Of a stretch of DNA of 64,000 nt, positions 3,939-13,539 are shown in pieces; the first letter of the stretch is position 1, and every line of letters begins with the position of its first letter. The notes below the pieces were generated by a model. The model searched no databases. It was not told the DNA's origin and saw only the letters and a list, made by a program, of their open reading frames with translations. The stretch lies in assembly GCA_945860955.1 (NCBI GenBank), contig CAMATH010000009.1, positions 1 to 64,000 of the forward strand, read 5' to 3'. The DNA is from Planctomicrobium piriforme. GTDB lineage: Bacteria > Planctomycetota > Planctomycetia > Planctomycetales > Planctomycetaceae. The translations under genes were made by a program, and so were the position numbers.

Positions 3939-6443
3939 CTAATGGACGAACAGGAATTCCTTGCTCGTCAGCACCGCCCACAGCACATCTTCCAGCGCCT
4001 CCCGTTTCGCCGTGGCCAGAAGCGCCGGATCGGTGACTCCCTGGGTCACTTCCGCGAGTGCCGCCGTCAACCGTTGCGACTCTTCCACGGTCGGCGTCCG
4101 CGACAGCGAACCAAGATAGATCCGCGCGATCAGCTCTTCGTCACCCACACCTTCGTCGATCCAACGTTTTAGCACGTTGTCCGCCGACTTCAGCTTGTCG
4201 TTCAGCGTTTTTCCGTTCGCCAGGTGCAGCGTCTGCGTAATGTTTGGCTCCGAATTCCGTTCGCACTCACAGGAAAACTCCCGTGCCGGTCGGCCAAACG
4301 CCGACAGGAAATAGCTGGTGACGTTATTGTCGGGCAACTGCAATGCCCGCAATCCTTTGGGATAGTCGGGGAATTCGGTCGGAACCTGTGTGACCTGCGA
4401 CAGCGCGTCGAGCAGCACCTCGGCCGACATGCGCTTCACCAGAAAATGGGAATAAAACCGGTCGTCGGCAACGTTGCCGGGGAGTGGGGCGGCGGTCCGC
4501 TGATACGCCTGCGACCGCATCACGGTACGAATCAGGTCACGCACGTTGTAACCCGATTGGACAAAGTGGGCGGCGAGCGCGTCGAGCAATTCGCCATTCG
4601 TCGGAGGATTGGTCGCCCGCAGGTCGTCGACCATTTCCACCAGTCCGCGTCCCATAAAATTCGCCCAGACCCGATTCGCCAGCGCTTTCGCGAAGTAGGG
4701 ATTCTCTGGGGCGGTCAACCACCTTGCCAGATGATCCCGTCGGTCGCGGGGATCCTGATCAGCGAGCGCTTCGCCATCCAGCGGACGGGCGAGCGGAGTT
4801 CCGATGCGCGTCGGATGCTTGATGTTTCCCGATTCGACCGAGAACACGACCGACTCGCCGTCGACCCCGGTGTCTTTTGTTCGAACGCGTGCGAAGAGAT
4901 TCGCCAGTCCGTAATAGTCGTCGAGCGTCCAACGTTCGAGCGGGTGGTCATGACACTGGGCGCAACCGACCGAGAGTCCCAGAAATGTCACCGTCGTCGC
5001 TTCACTTTGAACCTTGGGATCTTTGTGGAGCACAAAGTAGTTGGCCGCCCCGTTCTCCAGCGTGCTTCCCTGCGCCGTCAAGACCTGACGGGCGAATTCA
5101 TCCCAGGGCCGATTGTCAGCGACCGCGTCGCGAATCCAGTTGTAGAACGACCAGACCGCCGGCCCCTTCAGTTTCTTTGTGCTGACGAGCAGCAGATCCG
5201 ACCATTTATAGCTCCAGTAATCGACGAATTCCGGACGTGTCAGCAACGCGTCGATCAGCCGATCCCGCTTGTCGGGTGAACTGTCCGCGAGGAACGCCCG
5301 CGTTTCCTCCACGGTTGGCAAAACTCCCAGCGCATCCAGATGCGCCCGGCGGAGAAATTCGCTGTCACTGGCCGGGCCGGACGGGGGGATATCGAGTCGC
5401 TGCAGCTTCGCCAGCACCAGCTCATCAATGAAGTTTCGGCGGGGACTTTGTGTGAAGAATTCGGGCGGTACCTGCTGGTCGAACGGCACGCTGATATTCG
5501 CCACCGCGACTTTGCTGGCGAACCAGACGGTAATCGCCGACTCTCCCCGACCGGCGACCGAAACCACCCCTTCCTCATCCACGGTCGCAACCCCCGCTTC
5601 GGTGCTGGTGTACTTGGCCCAGTGCGTAACGTCCCGTCTGCGGCCATCACTGTAGGTCGCCTGAACGAGCATTTGCTGCCGGCTCTGGCCCGCGAGGGTC
5701 ACCTGTCGCGGCAGCACCTCGAGGCTGACCACAGTGGCATCGGTGTTCGAGGGGGCGGGGGTTCCCTGCGCGATCCATTCGGAAACAATGCGATATTCCA
5801 GGCTCTCCGGCTCGAAGCGGGTTCCGCCACCGTGGGGGACTTCGCCAGCTCCCTTGACGAGCAGCAAACTCTTCGCCGGATCATCTCGATTGATTCGTCT
5901 CCCCTTCGCCTGGCGAGTGAGGGTGTTGAAGTCCATTTCATGGTCATAACCACGGAGCGCGAGCTTGAAGTTCTTTTTTCCCGCCTGCGCCCCGTGACAC
6001 GCCCCCATATTGCATCCCGCGCGGGTCAGCACGGTCTGGACATCGTGGCGAAAACTCCAGGGTTCGTCCGCTTTTGACTGTCGGACGACAACGCGGGAGG
6101 AGATGCGTTGGCCGTTCACTTCCGCAGTGAGCGTCACCTCGCCATCCCCCACGGGCGACAACACCCCTTCGTCCAGGCGGACGATGTCGGGGGAAGAGAG
6201 CGACAGTCGTGCCGACCCGGTCACATCGCCGGCCGGCTGGCCATCGGTCAGACGTTCGACCACGACCCGTTGGAGGGCGTGCGGTCCGACGAGTTCCAGC
6301 TTTTCCGGAAGAATCTGATAGGTCTCCGCCGCGTTCGCGATTCCGAGTGACACGCACCAGAACGCGAAGAATGTGGAAACCAGGGAGTGCGGGGGCGCAT
6401 TCCAGGATCGCAGGCAGGCACGGAACATCGAGTCAAATCCCAT
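3939..6443 (-). CDS. DUF1549/DUF1553 protein with Ig-like BIG2 domains and heme-like motifs
   Basis: The product is 834 residues with a signal peptide ending near NAAE. Two bacterial Ig-like (BIG2-type) segments lie at about residues 40-125 and 245-325. A CNMGACH motif near residue 142 lies between them. The DUF1549 part (about 340-540) contains CAQCHDH near residue 492, a CxxCH heme-binding motif, and the DUF1553 part fills about 580-800. This architecture is typical of planctomycete surface or periplasmic proteins of unknown function, where cytochrome-like motifs suggest covalent heme. It is the first gene of a pair with the WD40/PPC gene downstream. The start is uncertain by a few codons, since neither nearby ATG has a clear ribosome-binding site. 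Confidence 0.9.
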   Translation of the reverse strand: MGFDSMFRACLRSWNAPPHSLVSTFFAFWCVSLGIANAAETYQILPEKLELVGPHALQRVVVERLTDGQPAGDVTGSARLSLSSPDIVRLDEGVLSPVGDGEVTLTAEVNGQRISSRVVVRQSKADEPWSFRHDVQTVLTRAGCNMGACHGAQAGKKNFKLALRGYDHEMDFNTLTRQAKGRRINRDDPAKSLLLVKGAGEVPHGGGTRFEPESLEYRIVSEWIAQGTPAPSNTDATVVSLEVLPRQVTLAGQSRQQMLVQATYSDGRRRDVTHWAKYTSTEAGVATVDEEGVVSVAGRGESAITVWFASKVAVANISVPFDQQVPPEFFTQSPRRNFIDELVLAKLQRLDIPPSGPASDSEFLRRAHLDALGVLPTVEETRAFLADSSPDKRDRLIDALLTRPEFVDYWSYKWSDLLLVSTKKLKGPAVWSFYNWIRDAVADNRPWDEFARQVLTAQGSTLENGAANYFVLHKDPKVQSEATTVTFLGLSVGCAQCHDHPLERWTLDDYYGLANLFARVRTKDTGVDGESVVFSVESGNIKHPTRIGTPLARPLDGEALADQDPRDRRDHLARWLTAPENPYFAKALANRVWANFMGRGLVEMVDDLRATNPPTNGELLDALAAHFVQSGYNVRDLIRTVMRSQAYQRTAAPLPGNVADDRFYSHFLVKRMSAEVLLDALSQVTQVPTEFPDYPKGLRALQLPDNNVTSYFLSAFGRPAREFSCECERNSEPNITQTLHLANGKTLNDKLKSADNVLKRWIDEGVGDEELIARIYLGSLSRTPTVEESQRLTAALAEVTQGVTDPALLATAKREALEDVLWAVLTSKEFLFVH

Positions 6444-8307: not shown

Positions 8308-8805
8308 TCACCCTTCGAGAAATTCCCACTCTGAGAACGTTGCCGCTTGCCCGGCAAACGCTCCGGCGGAATCCCTGAGATTCCAGACGGTTGCCCGATG
8401 GATGCGAAATCGCCGACCGGTCGTGGCGATCCGAATTCCCTGATAGTCATCGACATATCCCTGCCGCGTCGTCCGTTCCAGCAATCGGGCGCGCTCATCC
8501 CGGTGCAGTGGCTCGGCAGTCAGACGCGACGGGGTCTGGCGAAGTTGCTCAATGGAGATTTCCCACAGTTTCAACGCCGTCCGATTCCCGTAGTTGAGGA
8601 TCGGGTCGGATTGAGTTCCATGTGAAACCACGACGAATTCCGATTCAAACAGCGCCCGCGCCTGATCTCCGGCTGTACCGTCACGCGGAATCAACTCCCG
8701 GCCAATCCAATGTCGAAACGAGTCCAGCAAGATCTGAGTATGGAAGACCCAGTTGTGATTCAACCAAGGGGTGTCCGGATTTCCCGGCGCGGGTGTTTCT
8801 GGCAT
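8308..8805 (-). CDS. MEKHLA domain protein
   Basis: The product is 165 residues and consists almost entirely of a MEKHLA domain, a PAS-like sensory fold. The family pattern is clear: the opening helix with LLDSFRHWIGREL, the strand FVVVSHGTQSDPILNYGN, the segment with SRLTAEPLHRDERARLL, and the closing RRFRIHRATVWNL and GQAATFSEWE strands. In other bacteria such proteins stand alone and have no settled role; in plants the domain occurs in HD-ZIP III proteins. No ligand-binding residue can be assigned from sequence alone. It is followed on the same strand, after 155 bases, by the lipoprotein gene; co-transcription is possible but not shown. Confidence 0.88.
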   Translation of the reverse strand: MPETPAPGNPDTPWLNHNWVFHTQILLDSFRHWIGRELIPRDGTAGDQARALFESEFVVVSHGTQSDPILNYGNRTALKLWEISIEQLRQTPSRLTAEPLHRDERARLLERTTRQGYVDDYQGIRIATTGRRFRIHRATVWNLRDSAGAFAGQAATFSEWEFLEG

Positions 8806-9086: not shown

Positions 9087-9130
9087 AAAACCAGCCCGGC
9101 GATTTCGATGGAAATCGCCGGGCTGGTTTT
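9087..9130 (-). terminator. Rho-independent terminator of the molybdenum hydroxylase operon
   Basis: A perfect 20-bp inverted repeat (9087-9106 with 9111-9130) closes on the four-base loop GATG. Read on the minus strand the hairpin is followed by a run of eight T (9083-9090). It is 110 bases past the stop codon at 9240. The plus-strand side also ends in TTTT, so it could work both ways. Confidence 0.85.
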
Positions 9131-9239: not shown

Positions 9240-9464
9240 CTACGCTTCGTAGCAGGACCGTCCGGCGTCACGGCACTCTTTGTCACCGACGAACTGATCG
9301 TCGGGACCAAACGCGCGCTGGTTGCGGGAACACCAGAAGTTCCCATCTCCCGCCACGCGGTCGGCCTCGGACAGACCGTAATTCAGGTACATACCTTTGC
9401 AGCGCAGGCTCCGGCAACGTTCGCCCAGAACCGGGGCGGGTTGGAGCACGTTGAAATCGCTCAT
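9240..9464 (-). CDS. Five-cysteine small protein at the end of the molybdenum hydroxylase operon
   Basis: The product is 74 residues with cysteines at 17, 22, 45, 64 and 71, arranged as a CX4C pair and single cysteines, the kind of pattern that binds zinc or an iron-sulfur cluster. No signal peptide is visible. The start is firmly placed: GAAGGAG lies 9 bases upstream, and the ATG follows the stop codon of the FAD-subunit gene by one base. The terminator at 9087-9130 follows. Its place as last gene of a dehydrogenase operon suggests a role in assembly of, or electron transfer to, that enzyme, but this is inference. I recognise no named family. Confidence 0.75.
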   Translation of the reverse strand: MSDFNVLQPAPVLGERCRSLRCKGMYLNYGLSEADRVAGDGNFWCSRNQRAFGPDDQFVGDKECRDAGRSCYEA

Positions 9465-9465
9465 C

Positions 9466-10464
9466 TCAGCTCACTCCTTCCAATTGGCCGACGGCGCGGA
9501 GCAGCGCCCGCTTCACCGCCGTGCGTGCGATCTGAACCTTGTACTCGTTGTGCGCCAGTGGAGTCGCCCGGGCGACGGCGGCATCTCCCGCCGCCTGCGC
9601 GGTCGCTTCGTCGATCGAGCGTCCCTTCAGAACCTCGGCGGCATCGTGCGAAACCCACGGCGTCGGGGCGACATGCCCCAACACGACACGGGCTTCAGTC
9701 ACCATCCGGCCGTTCATTTCCAAAGCGACACCGGCCGACGCCAGTGGGTAATCCAACCCTTCCATCTGCAGCACTTCGTACGTGGCGCTCGCGAGGGTTG
9801 AACTCACCTCGGGCAGCCAGACGTGAGTCACCAACTGACCTGGCGTCAGCACCGTCACCCGTTGATCGGAGGACTTGGGTGTCACGTAGAAGTACTCGAT
9901 CGGCAACAGCGTGACCTGGTCGGGAGTCGGGCCGACGATGCGAACCTTCGCCCCCAGCGCGATCAGCGCGGGTGCGAAACGCGACGCCGACACAAACTTC
10001 GCCGGCCCCTGGTTCCCCAGGATGGCGTGGAAATCACTGCGGCCCTCGGCCGGCAATGACTCGCCATTCAGCGTTCCCAGCAGTCCGTATCCATTCCGGA
10101 AGTACCAGCAGTTGGGCAGATGACACAGGTCACCCCCCAGCGTGCCGGCCGACTGGATCTGGATCGCGTGGACGCCGTCGGCGACATGCGCCAGCGACGG
10201 ATGTCCCGCCAAAAGAGGATGCACCAGAATCTCGTCGAGCGTGGTGAGCGCGCCGACCAGCAGACCGCCGGTCACCGAGGTCACCCCCTTCATCGAACTG
10301 ATGTTGGTGATGTCGACCACGCGTTGGGGCGTGACAATGTCGGCCTTCAGCAGGCTGATCAGGTCGGTCCCGCCGGCGAGGACGGCGGTCTGGCCGTCGT
10401 GCGCCGCCAGAAGCTCGACCGCTTCGGCCTCGGTGCGGGGGCTGGCAAATTCGAAGGAACTCAT
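9466..10464 (-). CDS. Xanthine dehydrogenase-family FAD-binding subunit
   Basis: The product is 332 residues, usual for the CoxM/XdhB/PaoB flavin subunit of molybdenum hydroxylases. The FAD-binding motif AVLAGGTDLISLLK lies near residues 29-42, and the second flavin motif AGTLGGDLCHLPNCWYFRNG near residue 110. The cysteines in the latter are common in subunits that carry an extra cluster. It passes electrons from the iron-sulfur centres to FAD and on to an acceptor. The start overlaps the stop of the molybdopterin-subunit gene (ATGA), with AGGAGG 6 bases upstream, so the genes are translationally coupled. No Tat or Sec signal is present; export would be by piggyback on the 2Fe-2S subunit. Confidence 0.92.
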   Translation of the reverse strand: MSSFEFASPRTEAEAVELLAAHDGQTAVLAGGTDLISLLKADIVTPQRVVDITNISSMKGVTSVTGGLLVGALTTLDEILVHPLLAGHPSLAHVADGVHAIQIQSAGTLGGDLCHLPNCWYFRNGYGLLGTLNGESLPAEGRSDFHAILGNQGPAKFVSASRFAPALIALGAKVRIVGPTPDQVTLLPIEYFYVTPKSSDQRVTVLTPGQLVTHVWLPEVSSTLASATYEVLQMEGLDYPLASAGVALEMNGRMVTEARVVLGHVAPTPWVSHDAAEVLKGRSIDEATAQAAGDAAVARATPLAHNEYKVQIARTAVKRALLRAVGQLEGVS

Positions 10465-12611
10465 GCGTTGCCTCCTTTCTTGAGGGCGTCGAGCACGCGC
10501 TTGGGGGTCAATGGAAGCACCGGGACTCGCACACCAATGGCGTTCGCCACCGCGTTCGAGATCGCCGCTCCAGGAGCGATGACCGGCGGCTCTCCCAGTC
10601 CCACCACGCCACGATCGTATTCGCTGGCGGGCTGGTGCATGATTGCGACCAACTCACCCACGTCGCCAATTCGCGGCAACTTGTAGTTCTTCAGATCGGC
10701 GTTGATGTAACGGCCGGTCTTGTTGTCCATGATCCGCTCTTCGCTCAGCGAGTACGCGATCCCCATGATGAGAGCGCCCAGCACCTGGCTCTTGGCAGTC
10801 AACTCATCAAGGATCAACCCGCAATCCTGCACGCACACAAACTTGTGAATGCGGACATTGCCGGTCTCAGTGTCGACTGACAGATCGACCATCTGCACAC
10901 CACCCACCTGGTCGGCGGTCAGACCGTCTTTCTTCGGTCCTTCCCCCTTCACCACGAGGGGCATCGGGCCAATCAGTCGGCAGGCGTCCTTCCAAGAACA
11001 GACTTCTTTCTTCCCCGCGAAGATCTTCCCTTCACGAGCCGACAGTCCGTCCGCTTCGACCTTATACTTCTCGGCGACCTTGTCGAAGATCGTCCAGAGA
11101 GCGTCTTGAGCGGCCCGTCGATGAGCGCCCGAGACGCCGCCGACGGTAATACTGCCGCCGGAAGCACCCGACGTCGGATACTTGCTCGATCCCAGGTTCA
11201 CCTTCACACCAGACAGCGGCAGGCCGAACGTCTCGGCCAGCACAATGCTGATGATCGTGCGGGTTCCGGTTCCGATATCCTGGCTTCCCAGGAACGTCTC
11301 AACCGAACCATCGGGATGAACCTTGACCTCGCAGGTACAGGGGCCAGCGCCCCCGCCCCAGCGATGCAAGGCCATTCCCAGTCCCCGTTTGACCGGTCCC
11401 TTTCCTTCGCCACGCGGATGCCACTTCTCCTGCCAGCCAATCGCCTTGGCGGCGATCGCCATTTCCTCGGCATATGTTCCCGCTTTGTCGTTCAGCGTGA
11501 ACTCAAGGTTCTTAAGGAAGAAGTCGTAGCTGTTCATCCCCAGCTTGGCGGCCAAGTCGTCCAGCGCGGTCTGCGTCATCGCGCACAACTGCGGGTGCGG
11601 CGGTGCGCGCCACGCCCGGTTCGGCCCGGTGTTGCATTCCAGCCCGGTCTGCGACCGCTTGAAATTGGGGAACTTGAACGGATACGGCAACTGCTGCACG
11701 TCGACACCACCACCGCCAGGACCGTCGGTCCCCCAGTGATGACTTTCCCACGCGACCACTTTGCCTTCTGCATCCGCCGCGACCGTGACTTCGACGAAGC
11801 CCGAAGGACGCGTTCCCGCAGTCTTCAACTCCGTCGCACGGTCGAGCATCAACCGAACCGGCCGACCCGCTTCTTTCGCCATTTTCGCAGCCGCCAGACC
11901 CCATTCGTCGGCCTGGAACTTCGAACCAAAACCGCCACCTTCATAGTTGCCGGTGATGGTGACGTTGGCTTCATCAATTCCCAACGGCTCGGCGAATTGA
12001 CCGGCAGTCCCCGACACGTTCTGCGTCGAGAGGTGAACGTCGAGGTCGTCCCCCTTCCATTCACAGTGCGAGCCGTGCGGTTCGAGGCACATGTGGCTGA
12101 TCGTCTGGATGCCGTAGTAGCCTTTGTGGACCACCTTGGCACCCTGGATCGCCGCCTCGACGTCCCCTTCGCTGGCGCTTCCGAGCACTTTCGAGCGTTC
12201 GGCCTTCTTGCCCGCTTCGAGGTTTTCCTCATCGACGAAGTGTTCGAGAACCTCGTATTCGATGGTCGCTTCGATCGCCTTCACGCCATCCGCGGCCTGT
12301 TCGGCCCGTTCGGCGGCGACGGCGGCGATGAGATCGCCATCCCACTTGATCTCGTTTTCGTCGATGTCCTTAAAGAGGTGAACCGCCTTGACGCCGGGCA
12401 CCTTTTTCGCCGCCTCGATGTCGATCTTCTTGATCTTGGCGTGGGCGTGCTTACAGGTCACCAGCTTGGCGAACAGCGTTCCTTTGCTGTTGATGTCAGC
12501 CGAGTATTTGGCCGACCCGACGATTTTCGGAAGCGCGTCGATGCGGGTGATTTCCTTCCCGATCAGCACGTTCTGGTCGCGCGGTCCCCAGGCATGTTTG
12601 CGTTCGGCCAT
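10461..12611 (-). CDS. Xanthine dehydrogenase-family molybdopterin-binding subunit
   Basis: The product is 716 residues, the length of the short CoxL/XdhA/PaoC catalytic subunits. Cofactor contacts typical of the family are visible: GNYEGGGFGSKF near residue 220, the glycine-rich SQDIGTGTRTI, and SGASGGSITVGG. The catalytic glutamate lies in GVVGLGEPPVIAPGAA near the C-terminus. The substrate could be an aldehyde, a purine or another N-heterocycle; the sequence does not decide. No signal peptide is present. It starts one base after the stop of the 2Fe-2S gene and overlaps the FAD-subunit gene, giving the order FeS, Mo, FAD. Confidence 0.93.
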   Translation of the reverse strand: MAERKHAWGPRDQNVLIGKEITRIDALPKIVGSAKYSADINSKGTLFAKLVTCKHAHAKIKKIDIEAAKKVPGVKAVHLFKDIDENEIKWDGDLIAAVAAERAEQAADGVKAIEATIEYEVLEHFVDEENLEAGKKAERSKVLGSASEGDVEAAIQGAKVVHKGYYGIQTISHMCLEPHGSHCEWKGDDLDVHLSTQNVSGTAGQFAEPLGIDEANVTITGNYEGGGFGSKFQADEWGLAAAKMAKEAGRPVRLMLDRATELKTAGTRPSGFVEVTVAADAEGKVVAWESHHWGTDGPGGGGVDVQQLPYPFKFPNFKRSQTGLECNTGPNRAWRAPPHPQLCAMTQTALDDLAAKLGMNSYDFFLKNLEFTLNDKAGTYAEEMAIAAKAIGWQEKWHPRGEGKGPVKRGLGMALHRWGGGAGPCTCEVKVHPDGSVETFLGSQDIGTGTRTIISIVLAETFGLPLSGVKVNLGSSKYPTSGASGGSITVGGVSGAHRRAAQDALWTIFDKVAEKYKVEADGLSAREGKIFAGKKEVCSWKDACRLIGPMPLVVKGEGPKKDGLTADQVGGVQMVDLSVDTETGNVRIHKFVCVQDCGLILDELTAKSQVLGALIMGIAYSLSEERIMDNKTGRYINADLKNYKLPRIGDVGELVAIMHQPASEYDRGVVGLGEPPVIAPGAAISNAVANAIGVRVPVLPLTPKRVLDALKKGGNA

Positions 12612-12612
12612 G

Positions 12613-13251
12613 CTACTTGCCTCCCTTCTTCGAACATTCGAGAGCGGCGGCGATCACGCCAGCATAGGTGCCGCAGCGGCAGATGTTGCCCCCCAGCCCC
12701 TTGCCGATGTCTTCCACCGTCGCGTTCGGCTTGGCGGCGACAAACGCCCGCGTCGCCACCACGAAACCCGGGGTGCAATAGCCGCACTGGGTGGCGTCGT
12801 GCTTCACGAAGCACTGCGCGACCGCGTCGACTCCCTGACCCGCCAACCCCTCGGCGGTCATGATCTTCTTCCCGACAGCGGAGTGCGCCAGGACCGAACA
12901 GGCGTAGACCGCCTTGCCATCGAGCAGCACCGTGCAGGCACCACAATTTGCCGTGTCGCAGACCTCTTTGGCCCCGGTGAGGCTGAGGTCGTCGCGCAGG
13001 ACGTCGAGCAGGGTGACGCGAGGCTCGACGGTGACGGTCACCGCTTTGCCGTTGATGTCGAGCTTAACCGCAGACGCTTTCGCCGGGGCGACCTTGGTGC
13101 CCGCCTGCTGCGCCGCTTCGGTCTCGCTGACCGACTGGGCCAGCGTGGTGGCCGCGACGGCCGCCCCCGACCCCTTGAGGAAATCGCGACGACTGAACCC
13201 GGATCCACTCCGGATTTGGTCCTCACGCGTGGGATGACCTTGATCGGGCAT
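12613..13251 (-). CDS. Tat-exported 2Fe-2S subunit of molybdenum hydroxylase
   Basis: The product is 212 residues. A twin-arginine signal (SRRDFLKGSGAAVAATTLA, arginines 21-22) is followed by the plant-type [2Fe-2S] domain with CDTANCGAC and a downstream cysteine. The second all-alpha [2Fe-2S] domain has CGYCTPGF and CRCGTY. ATG at 13251 was chosen for its GGAGAGGAG site 5-6 bases upstream. The family model is PaoA (YagT) of Escherichia coli, whose Tat signal exports the whole PaoABC aldehyde oxidoreductase to the periplasm. Here the two partner subunits also lack signals, so the same hitch-hiking is expected. It is the first gene of the operon running down to 9240. Confidence 0.93.
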   Translation of the reverse strand: MPDQGHPTREDQIRSGSGFSRRDFLKGSGAAVAATTLAQSVSETEAAQQAGTKVAPAKASAVKLDINGKAVTVTVEPRVTLLDVLRDDLSLTGAKEVCDTANCGACTVLLDGKAVYACSVLAHSAVGKKIMTAEGLAGQGVDAVAQCFVKHDATQCGYCTPGFVVATRAFVAAKPNATVEDIGKGLGGNICRCGTYAGVIAAALECSKKGGK

Positions 13252-13539
13252 AAATGCTCCTCTCCCTGAAGAAATCACAACGGAAGATGCATGAGCGAAT
13301 CGGCGGTCCGGTTCGCGGGAACGGAGTGATTGTATCGGCAGAATCTGACGCCACAACCGAGAGGGGAAAAAAGGTCAAGTTCCCTGCTGCCCTAACCGAG
13401 GTTCGCGAGGCCGGAATCTGGAATTCAGTTTCTTCCGTTTCCTGCGGAGCGCATAATGACGGCTCGGACCACGGTCAGCCCGTGCTGGCCGTTTTTCCGA
13501 CAGGACGAGATCCCTTCCGCGCTCCAAGGTGCTTCTCTG

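Follow-up and report, generated by a model that had tools for sequence, protein, structure and literature searches.

A cysteine-rich small protein encoded as the fourth gene of a Tat-exported molybdenum hydroxylase operon across the Planctomycetota

What is the role of a 74-residue, cysteine-rich reading frame at the 3' end of an operon encoding a molybdenum hydroxylase with a twin-arginine export signal? The question is raised by a 64,000-nucleotide stretch of Planctomicrobium piriforme DNA (the window), in which an initial annotation had read this frame, here termed ORF74, as a real gene for a dedicated partner of the exported enzyme, standing where operons of the PaoABC type carry a PaoD-type chaperone and possibly encoding a new assembly or redox factor. 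The analysis presented here identifies ORF74 as a genuine gene by its pattern of sequence change, follows its homologs through the phylum and weighs the functions that its conserved cysteines might serve.

The enzyme operon and its fourth gene

The operon lies on the minus strand and is read in the order [2Fe-2S] subunit, molybdenum subunit, FAD subunit and ORF74, followed by a hairpin. The [2Fe-2S] subunit (12613-13251; PF10518, PF00111, PF01799) bears a Tat signal, recognized by PF10518, with the motif SRRDFL; its likely start is the ATG at 13251, chosen over the mechanically delimited frame that opens at 13356. The molybdenum cofactor subunit (10461-12611; PF02738, PF20256, PF01315) and the FAD subunit (9466-10464; PF00941, PF03450), both on the same strand, complete by Pfam domains and gene order the three-subunit make-up of a PaoABC-type enzyme. 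The resemblance to E. coli PaoABCD thus comprises the molybdenum, FAD and [2Fe-2S] subunits, the Tat signal on the iron-sulfur subunit and the presence of a fourth, 3'-terminal gene. Unlike in PaoABCD, however, the molybdenum subunit falls far short of the PaoC equivalog cut-off (306.2 bits against 1180), the FAD subunit has only one of the four cysteines of the PaoB/HcrB-type cluster loop, and the fourth gene encodes ORF74, a cysteine protein of 71-97 aa in its 63 aligned members, instead of a PaoD chaperone.

A loop of four cysteines holding a [4Fe-4S] cluster in the FAD subunit is a feature of the PaoABC-type family. These cysteines, which we take to be the ligands of the cluster, can be discerned in alignments with PDB entries 1rm6 and 5y6q, and only one of the four is present in the window. 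Among NCBIfam models, the FAD subunit scores best against that of 4-hydroxybenzoyl-CoA reductase, an enzyme (PDB 1rm6/1sb3) that some planctomycete FAD subunits resemble in having four cysteines in the equivalent loop, but the score of the window subunit (127.9 bits) is well below the cut-off of 404.55 and its loop is degenerate. We know of no small fourth protein in 4-hydroxybenzoyl-CoA reductase, whose additional [4Fe-4S] cluster is named in the title of a reference listed in PMC3958847.

ORF74 itself spans positions 9240-9464 of the minus strand, stop codon included, and encodes 74 aa with cysteines at positions 17, 22, 45, 64 and 71, all in agreement with the initial description of the locus. 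Its ribosome-binding site, GGAAGGAG (9474-9481, minus strand), is located inside the FAD gene, close to where that gene ends, 9 nt ahead of the ORF74 ATG at 9464. The stop codon of the FAD subunit (9468-9466) ends only 1 nt ahead of this start, and translational coupling of the two genes is therefore likely. On the 3' side of ORF74, a terminator-like hairpin of 20 pairs followed by a T tail occupies positions 9087-9130 of the same strand, so that the gene does sit, as had been claimed, between the FAD subunit and a 20-bp terminator. The region contains three terminator-like sites, against a mean of 4.0 in shuffled sequences, and the two others have just 5-6 pairs. Downstream of the operon, the same strand encodes a MEKHLA-domain protein (8308-8805; PF08670, E 5.8e-56), and a reading frame of 325 aa at 6761-7738 matches no family significantly (best Pfam E 0.25).

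Comparison with related loci reveals the pattern of change expected of coding DNA. Between ORF74 and its counterpart in the closest relative compared (L002) there are 13 synonymous and no non-synonymous differences, and two further comparisons yield dN and dS values of 0.12 and 1.43 (L003) and of 0.25 and 1.25 (L004). Because all changes relative to L002 are synonymous, ORF74 is, as judged from its sequence evolution, a genuine gene under purifying selection. The presence of homologs at the equivalent place across the phylum, documented below, likewise bears out its reading as a real gene.

Distribution of ORF74 homologs and linkage to the operon

In a sample of 392 genomes from across the phylum, 83 presented a match to ORF74, and in 82 of these 83 a gene for the FAD subunit, the molybdenum subunit or both lies upstream on the same strand. 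By coordinates, 75 of the 83 have the molybdenum gene 974-1855 nt upstream of ORF74 on the same strand; three more (G255, G248 and G338) contain both FAD and molybdenum genes in the ORF74 locus, and the remaining linked genomes were recognized from the list of molybdenum-gene matches (G453, G217) or by inspection of the locus (G382, G361). The one match with neither gene close by (G300, E 0.0035) was taken as chance. Conversely, after removal of the 15 weakest or fragmentary matches from 119, 104 genomes of the phylum sample carry the molybdenum gene, and 92 of them have ORF74 adjacent to it, 75 as counted among the phylum-sample matches and 17 recovered with a better profile on DNA obtained later. 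Six lack it and six could not be judged (G203, G289, G372 and G481, at contig ends, and G310 and G320). The proposal that ORF74 is a dedicated partner of the exported molybdenum hydroxylase is supported by this linkage, and homologs that might have been confined to the window are instead found at this operon phylum-wide.

Closer relatives were sampled as well. Among 150 genomes of the same family, 54 matched ORF74, or 53 once a chance match (G084) is dropped; the molybdenum gene was found at E ≤ 1e-100 in 74 genomes, 22 of which had no genuine ORF74, 15 of them with enough downstream sequence and seven at contig ends. In a sample of 170 genomes from the order, 56 matched, one of them weakly (G158). 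The genome of the window itself holds a second molybdenum gene of the xanthine oxidase family (G000 contig 3, 53023-53733) and a single ORF74 match. The gene on the 3' side of ORF74 is variable, with no common family among ten scanned proteins, and it is on the opposite strand in 58 of 103 loci, a rough count that is based on mechanically delimited reading frames, includes some genomes twice and misreads at least L001, whose actual next gene (MEKHLA) shares the strand of the operon.

Several matches in unusual positions were assessed individually. Candidate paralogs in L049 and L051-L055 (E 1e-3 to 0.01) had no FAD or molybdenum gene in the examined stretch, with surroundings listed for L052 and L053 only, and no motif, and were treated as chance. 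Approximately 1 kb behind the full copy in L012, a second C-terminal half of ORF74 (5463-5591) with an identical C-terminal stretch is a real match, as is a second, fragmentary one at a contig start in L057. These two and L037, whose start is over-long, were excluded from both alignments, A1 and A2, and A2 also excludes L115, one of 26 distant members; the start codons of relatives were chosen by script. Open frames of about 400 aa suggestive of an ORF74-FAD fusion were rejected, the FAD gene being in a different frame in the three that were inspected (L035, L096 and L100). In L144 (G094 contig 21), the molybdenum gene is split over two adjacent frames, which could mean either that the gene is disrupted or that the sequence contains an error.

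A tblastn search of plasmids with three family members as queries returned three partial matches, of which the one on a Shinella plasmid was rejected as a homolog for missing the remaining cysteines, and the other two were weak (E 0.3 and 0.1). A scan of genome contigs, capable of detecting near-exact peptides only, produced 12 loci, all with titles naming Planctomycet- or Schlesneria; more divergent homologs beyond the phylum may have escaped it. As far as these sequence comparisons reach, the ORF74 family is phylum-wide in the Planctomycetota, occurs in many of its families and is tied to one operon.

The enzyme is nonetheless found without ORF74. Of 120 distinct FAD loci, 22 have at least 700 bp of downstream sequence and no ORF74, in a tally (94 with, 22 without, 4 others) that gives no frequency, the loci having been chosen in part for having or lacking the gene. 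Presence and absence change state seven times on the FAD tree. Fifteen of the 22 loci are dispersed within ORF74-bearing clades; the other seven cluster in a single region of it, in which the lack of ORF74 could predate its presence. No remnant of ORF74 better than E 2 was detected in the 22 loci, and the Tat motif is kept in all four of them in which the iron-sulfur gene was examined. Because loci of this kind retain both the enzyme and its Tat motif, ORF74 is, to judge from these genomes, not strictly essential to the enzyme, which several lineages keep without it. In one genus (g56), the gene directly behind the FAD gene encodes a thioredoxin-like, PDZ-domain protein in four of eight ORF74-less loci (L128, L133, L136 and L138), and in L139 such a gene lies about 3 kb away; the L128 protein contains a CIHCH motif. 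Of ten scanned proteins that are encoded after the FAD gene where ORF74 is absent, only two are of this kind, which is possibly an ORF74 substitute in that genus.

The state of the FAD-subunit loop was also compared between the two sets of loci. Where ORF74 is present, the loop is complete (CCCC) in 31 of 94 loci and eroded to a single cysteine (CL-A) in 51, including the clade of the window, the complete form being found in other planctomycete families; where ORF74 is absent, it is eroded in 15 of 22 loci and complete in five. Intact and eroded loops thus occur with and without ORF74, and the idea that ORF74 replaces the [4Fe-4S] loop of the FAD subunit was rejected. From these alignments, the cofactor set of the enzyme seems to have changed inside the family independently of ORF74.

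Four fixed cysteines and one of varying position

Alignment of 63 members (A2) revealed four invariant cysteines, corresponding to Cys17 (codon at 9414-9416), Cys45 (9330-9332), Cys64 (9273-9275) and Cys71 (9252-9254) on the minus strand of the window, where they are spaced C-x27-C-x18-C-x6-C with no CxxC pair among them. K23, W44, G53, P54 and R69 are invariant as well and L20, T48 and D55 nearly so; in a wider set, the residue preceding Cys45 is tryptophan in 77 of 86 sequences and histidine in the other nine. The family accordingly presents four invariant cysteines, no invariant histidine and conserved glycine, proline and tryptophan positions. In the full set of loci, all four cysteines are found in 93 of 94, L147 lacking the first. 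Had the cysteines not been conserved, the initial interpretation would have fallen; four of the five it counted are essentially fixed, while the fifth, represented by Cys22 (9399-9401, minus strand) in the clade of the window, shifts position between lineages.

At least one further cysteine is nevertheless present in all 94 loci, at position 59, 22, 60, 43, 19, 47, 41 or elsewhere. One such residue is found in 68 loci, two in 23 and three in 3, and 51 of the 63 aligned members contain exactly five cysteines. The class of extra cysteine changes 16 times on the FAD tree. To gauge this universality, the sites were simulated as evolving independently on the FAD tree, with the cysteine frequency at each constrained close to the observed one; under this model, 26.4 of 93 loci (sd 7.4) were expected to lack an extra cysteine, and none of 4000 draws had three or fewer such loci. 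A calculation that ignores the tree predicts 21.1 such loci. An earlier simulation with fitted rates predicted 32.6 of 93 loci (sd 15.9), with zero reached in 8 of 4000 draws, but it under-produced cysteines (at site 59, for example, 18.2 against 34 observed), which exaggerated the effect and is mended by the conditioning. Both simulations treat the sites as independent and two-state and depend on an FAD tree that was built rapidly and has long branches. Because an extra cysteine is universal against the simulated expectation, the pattern suggests that ORF74 requires, close to its four fixed cysteines, an additional thiol that can come from several positions. To our knowledge, no family has been described by a required cysteine of moving position.

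Comparison with described proteins provided no relative. ORF74 matched no Pfam or NCBIfam model and no sequence in the PDB, and the 63 aligned members together gave two single Pfam matches (E 0.06-0.1) and none in NCBIfam. A structure model with a mean pLDDT of 80.9 places strands at residues 20-22 and 43-45; searched with Foldseek it returned two matches, both with E above 8 and neither a credible fold, and VIA-align returned none. Neither sequence nor fold searches matched ORF74 to a known iron-sulfur or zinc protein. Ferredoxins, HiPIP and rubredoxin are short proteins built on four cysteines, but the fixed cysteines of ORF74 include no CxxC pair, and it belongs by family, sequence or credible fold to none of the described small iron-sulfur groups. 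Titles and abstract openings of the open-licence literature matches listed did not mention this small protein. The enzyme is of a known kind, and the small protein has no described relative by family, sequence or fold.

Candidate roles for the fourth protein

The strict retention of four cysteines is the strongest point in favor of a metal site, and this conservation suggests that such a site in ORF74 serves the enzyme. The initial suggestion of a new assembly or redox factor agrees with the evidence in either of its forms. The reading we prefer, tentatively and at somewhat less than even chances, is that ORF74 serves the Tat-exported, PaoABC-like hydroxylase as a dedicated fourth component, a cysteine-ligated metal protein providing an exit for electrons from the FAD. 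The protein would fold around a metal site formed by four fixed thiols and one movable thiol, most likely, judging from the cysteines alone, an iron-sulfur cluster. While in the cytoplasm, it would attach to the FAD subunit, then be exported together with the enzyme through the Tat hitchhiker route and help electrons pass from the FAD to a periplasmic acceptor.

Export of this kind has a precedent within the enzyme family. The iron-sulfur subunit carries a twin-arginine motif in all 38 loci in which its frame lies clear of the locus ends (37 by pattern and L182, with HRRDFL, by eye). No hydrophobic stretch was found in ORF74, the best 19-residue mean being 0.05 in the window protein and at most 1.03 among the 63 members, and judged from hydrophobicity there is no apparent signal peptide. 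By analogy, ORF74 could be exported like PaoB and PaoC of E. coli, which lack signals of their own and hitchhike on the Tat signal of PaoA (PMC4273604).

The main rival, which we hold to be somewhat unlikely, is a cytoplasmic assembly or proofreading factor that binds the folded FAD or molybdenum subunit, supplies or protects a cluster or cofactor, or keeps the complex from being exported before it is mature, and is not retained in the enzyme. The lack of a hydrophobic stretch suited to a signal peptide fits such a factor, as does the tie to a Tat-exported cofactor enzyme; ORF74 is also, like PaoD, the 3'-most gene of its operon, and it can be lost while the enzyme persists, as an accessory factor could be. 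XdhC/PaoD chaperones (PF02625) are likewise accessory proteins of xanthine-oxidase-family enzymes, but PaoD, the last gene product of paoABCD, has 35 kDa (PMC3909100) and is indeed, as had been pointed out, far larger than the 74 aa of ORF74. None of the 63 members matched the XdhC/PaoD family. The only match to PF02625 in the genome is on another contig, unlinked to the operon; this gene may fill the PaoD role, which would speak against ORF74 as the assembly factor, or may instead serve a second enzyme of the family, and because the genome does hold a second molybdenum gene of that family, its assignment to the ORF74 enzyme is kept conditional. Cysteines as constant as these four, kept together in 93 of 94 loci, moreover resemble a permanent metal site more than a binding surface.

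Quite unlikely, in our estimate, is a small structural subunit whose zinc site merely stabilizes the FAD subunit and transfers no electrons. Four invariant cysteines without an invariant histidine, together with the conserved glycine, proline and tryptophan, would suit it, and structural zinc would give the same cysteine pattern as a cluster, which counts against our preferred reading; a plain four-cysteine zinc site, however, leaves the further, movable cysteine unexplained. A periplasmic disulfide protein, its cysteines pairing after export and holding no metal, appears improbable. Its partner enzyme is exported, pairing would conserve cysteines and could engage an extra one at changing places, and two or three extra cysteines occur in 26 of 94 loci; yet the cysteine count is odd, at exactly five, in 51 of 63 members, and a protein with no apparent signal peptide would be made in, and carried from, the reducing cytoplasm. 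That ORF74 is a functionless chance frame, of which the GC-rich DNA of the window holds plenty of short examples, can be dismissed given its exclusively synonymous divergence from L002 and the phylum-wide conservation of its place and residues.

Returning to the metal-dependent electron exit, the most serious objection to an obligatory redox role is that ORF74 is dispensable in several lineages, its loss there counting against an electron exit that the enzyme could not do without. The conditioned simulation bears on metal binding in general and therefore leaves the odds between the readings unchanged. A further step, which we deem unlikely, would make ORF74 a new type of cluster site, in which four fixed thiols are joined by a fifth reaching one spot from several positions, within a redox subunit co-exported with the enzyme and connecting it to a periplasmic electron chain of planctomycetes.

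Few systems with exported enzymes of the xanthine oxidase family have been described, and knowledge of the helper proteins of these enzymes and of their electron acceptors in the periplasm is scant. A fourth protein distributed across a phylum, with a strict pattern of four cysteines plus one, is a small candidate for this missing acceptor or helper step, and a required cysteine of moving position is a trait that could help in recognizing metal sites elsewhere among small proteins without a name.
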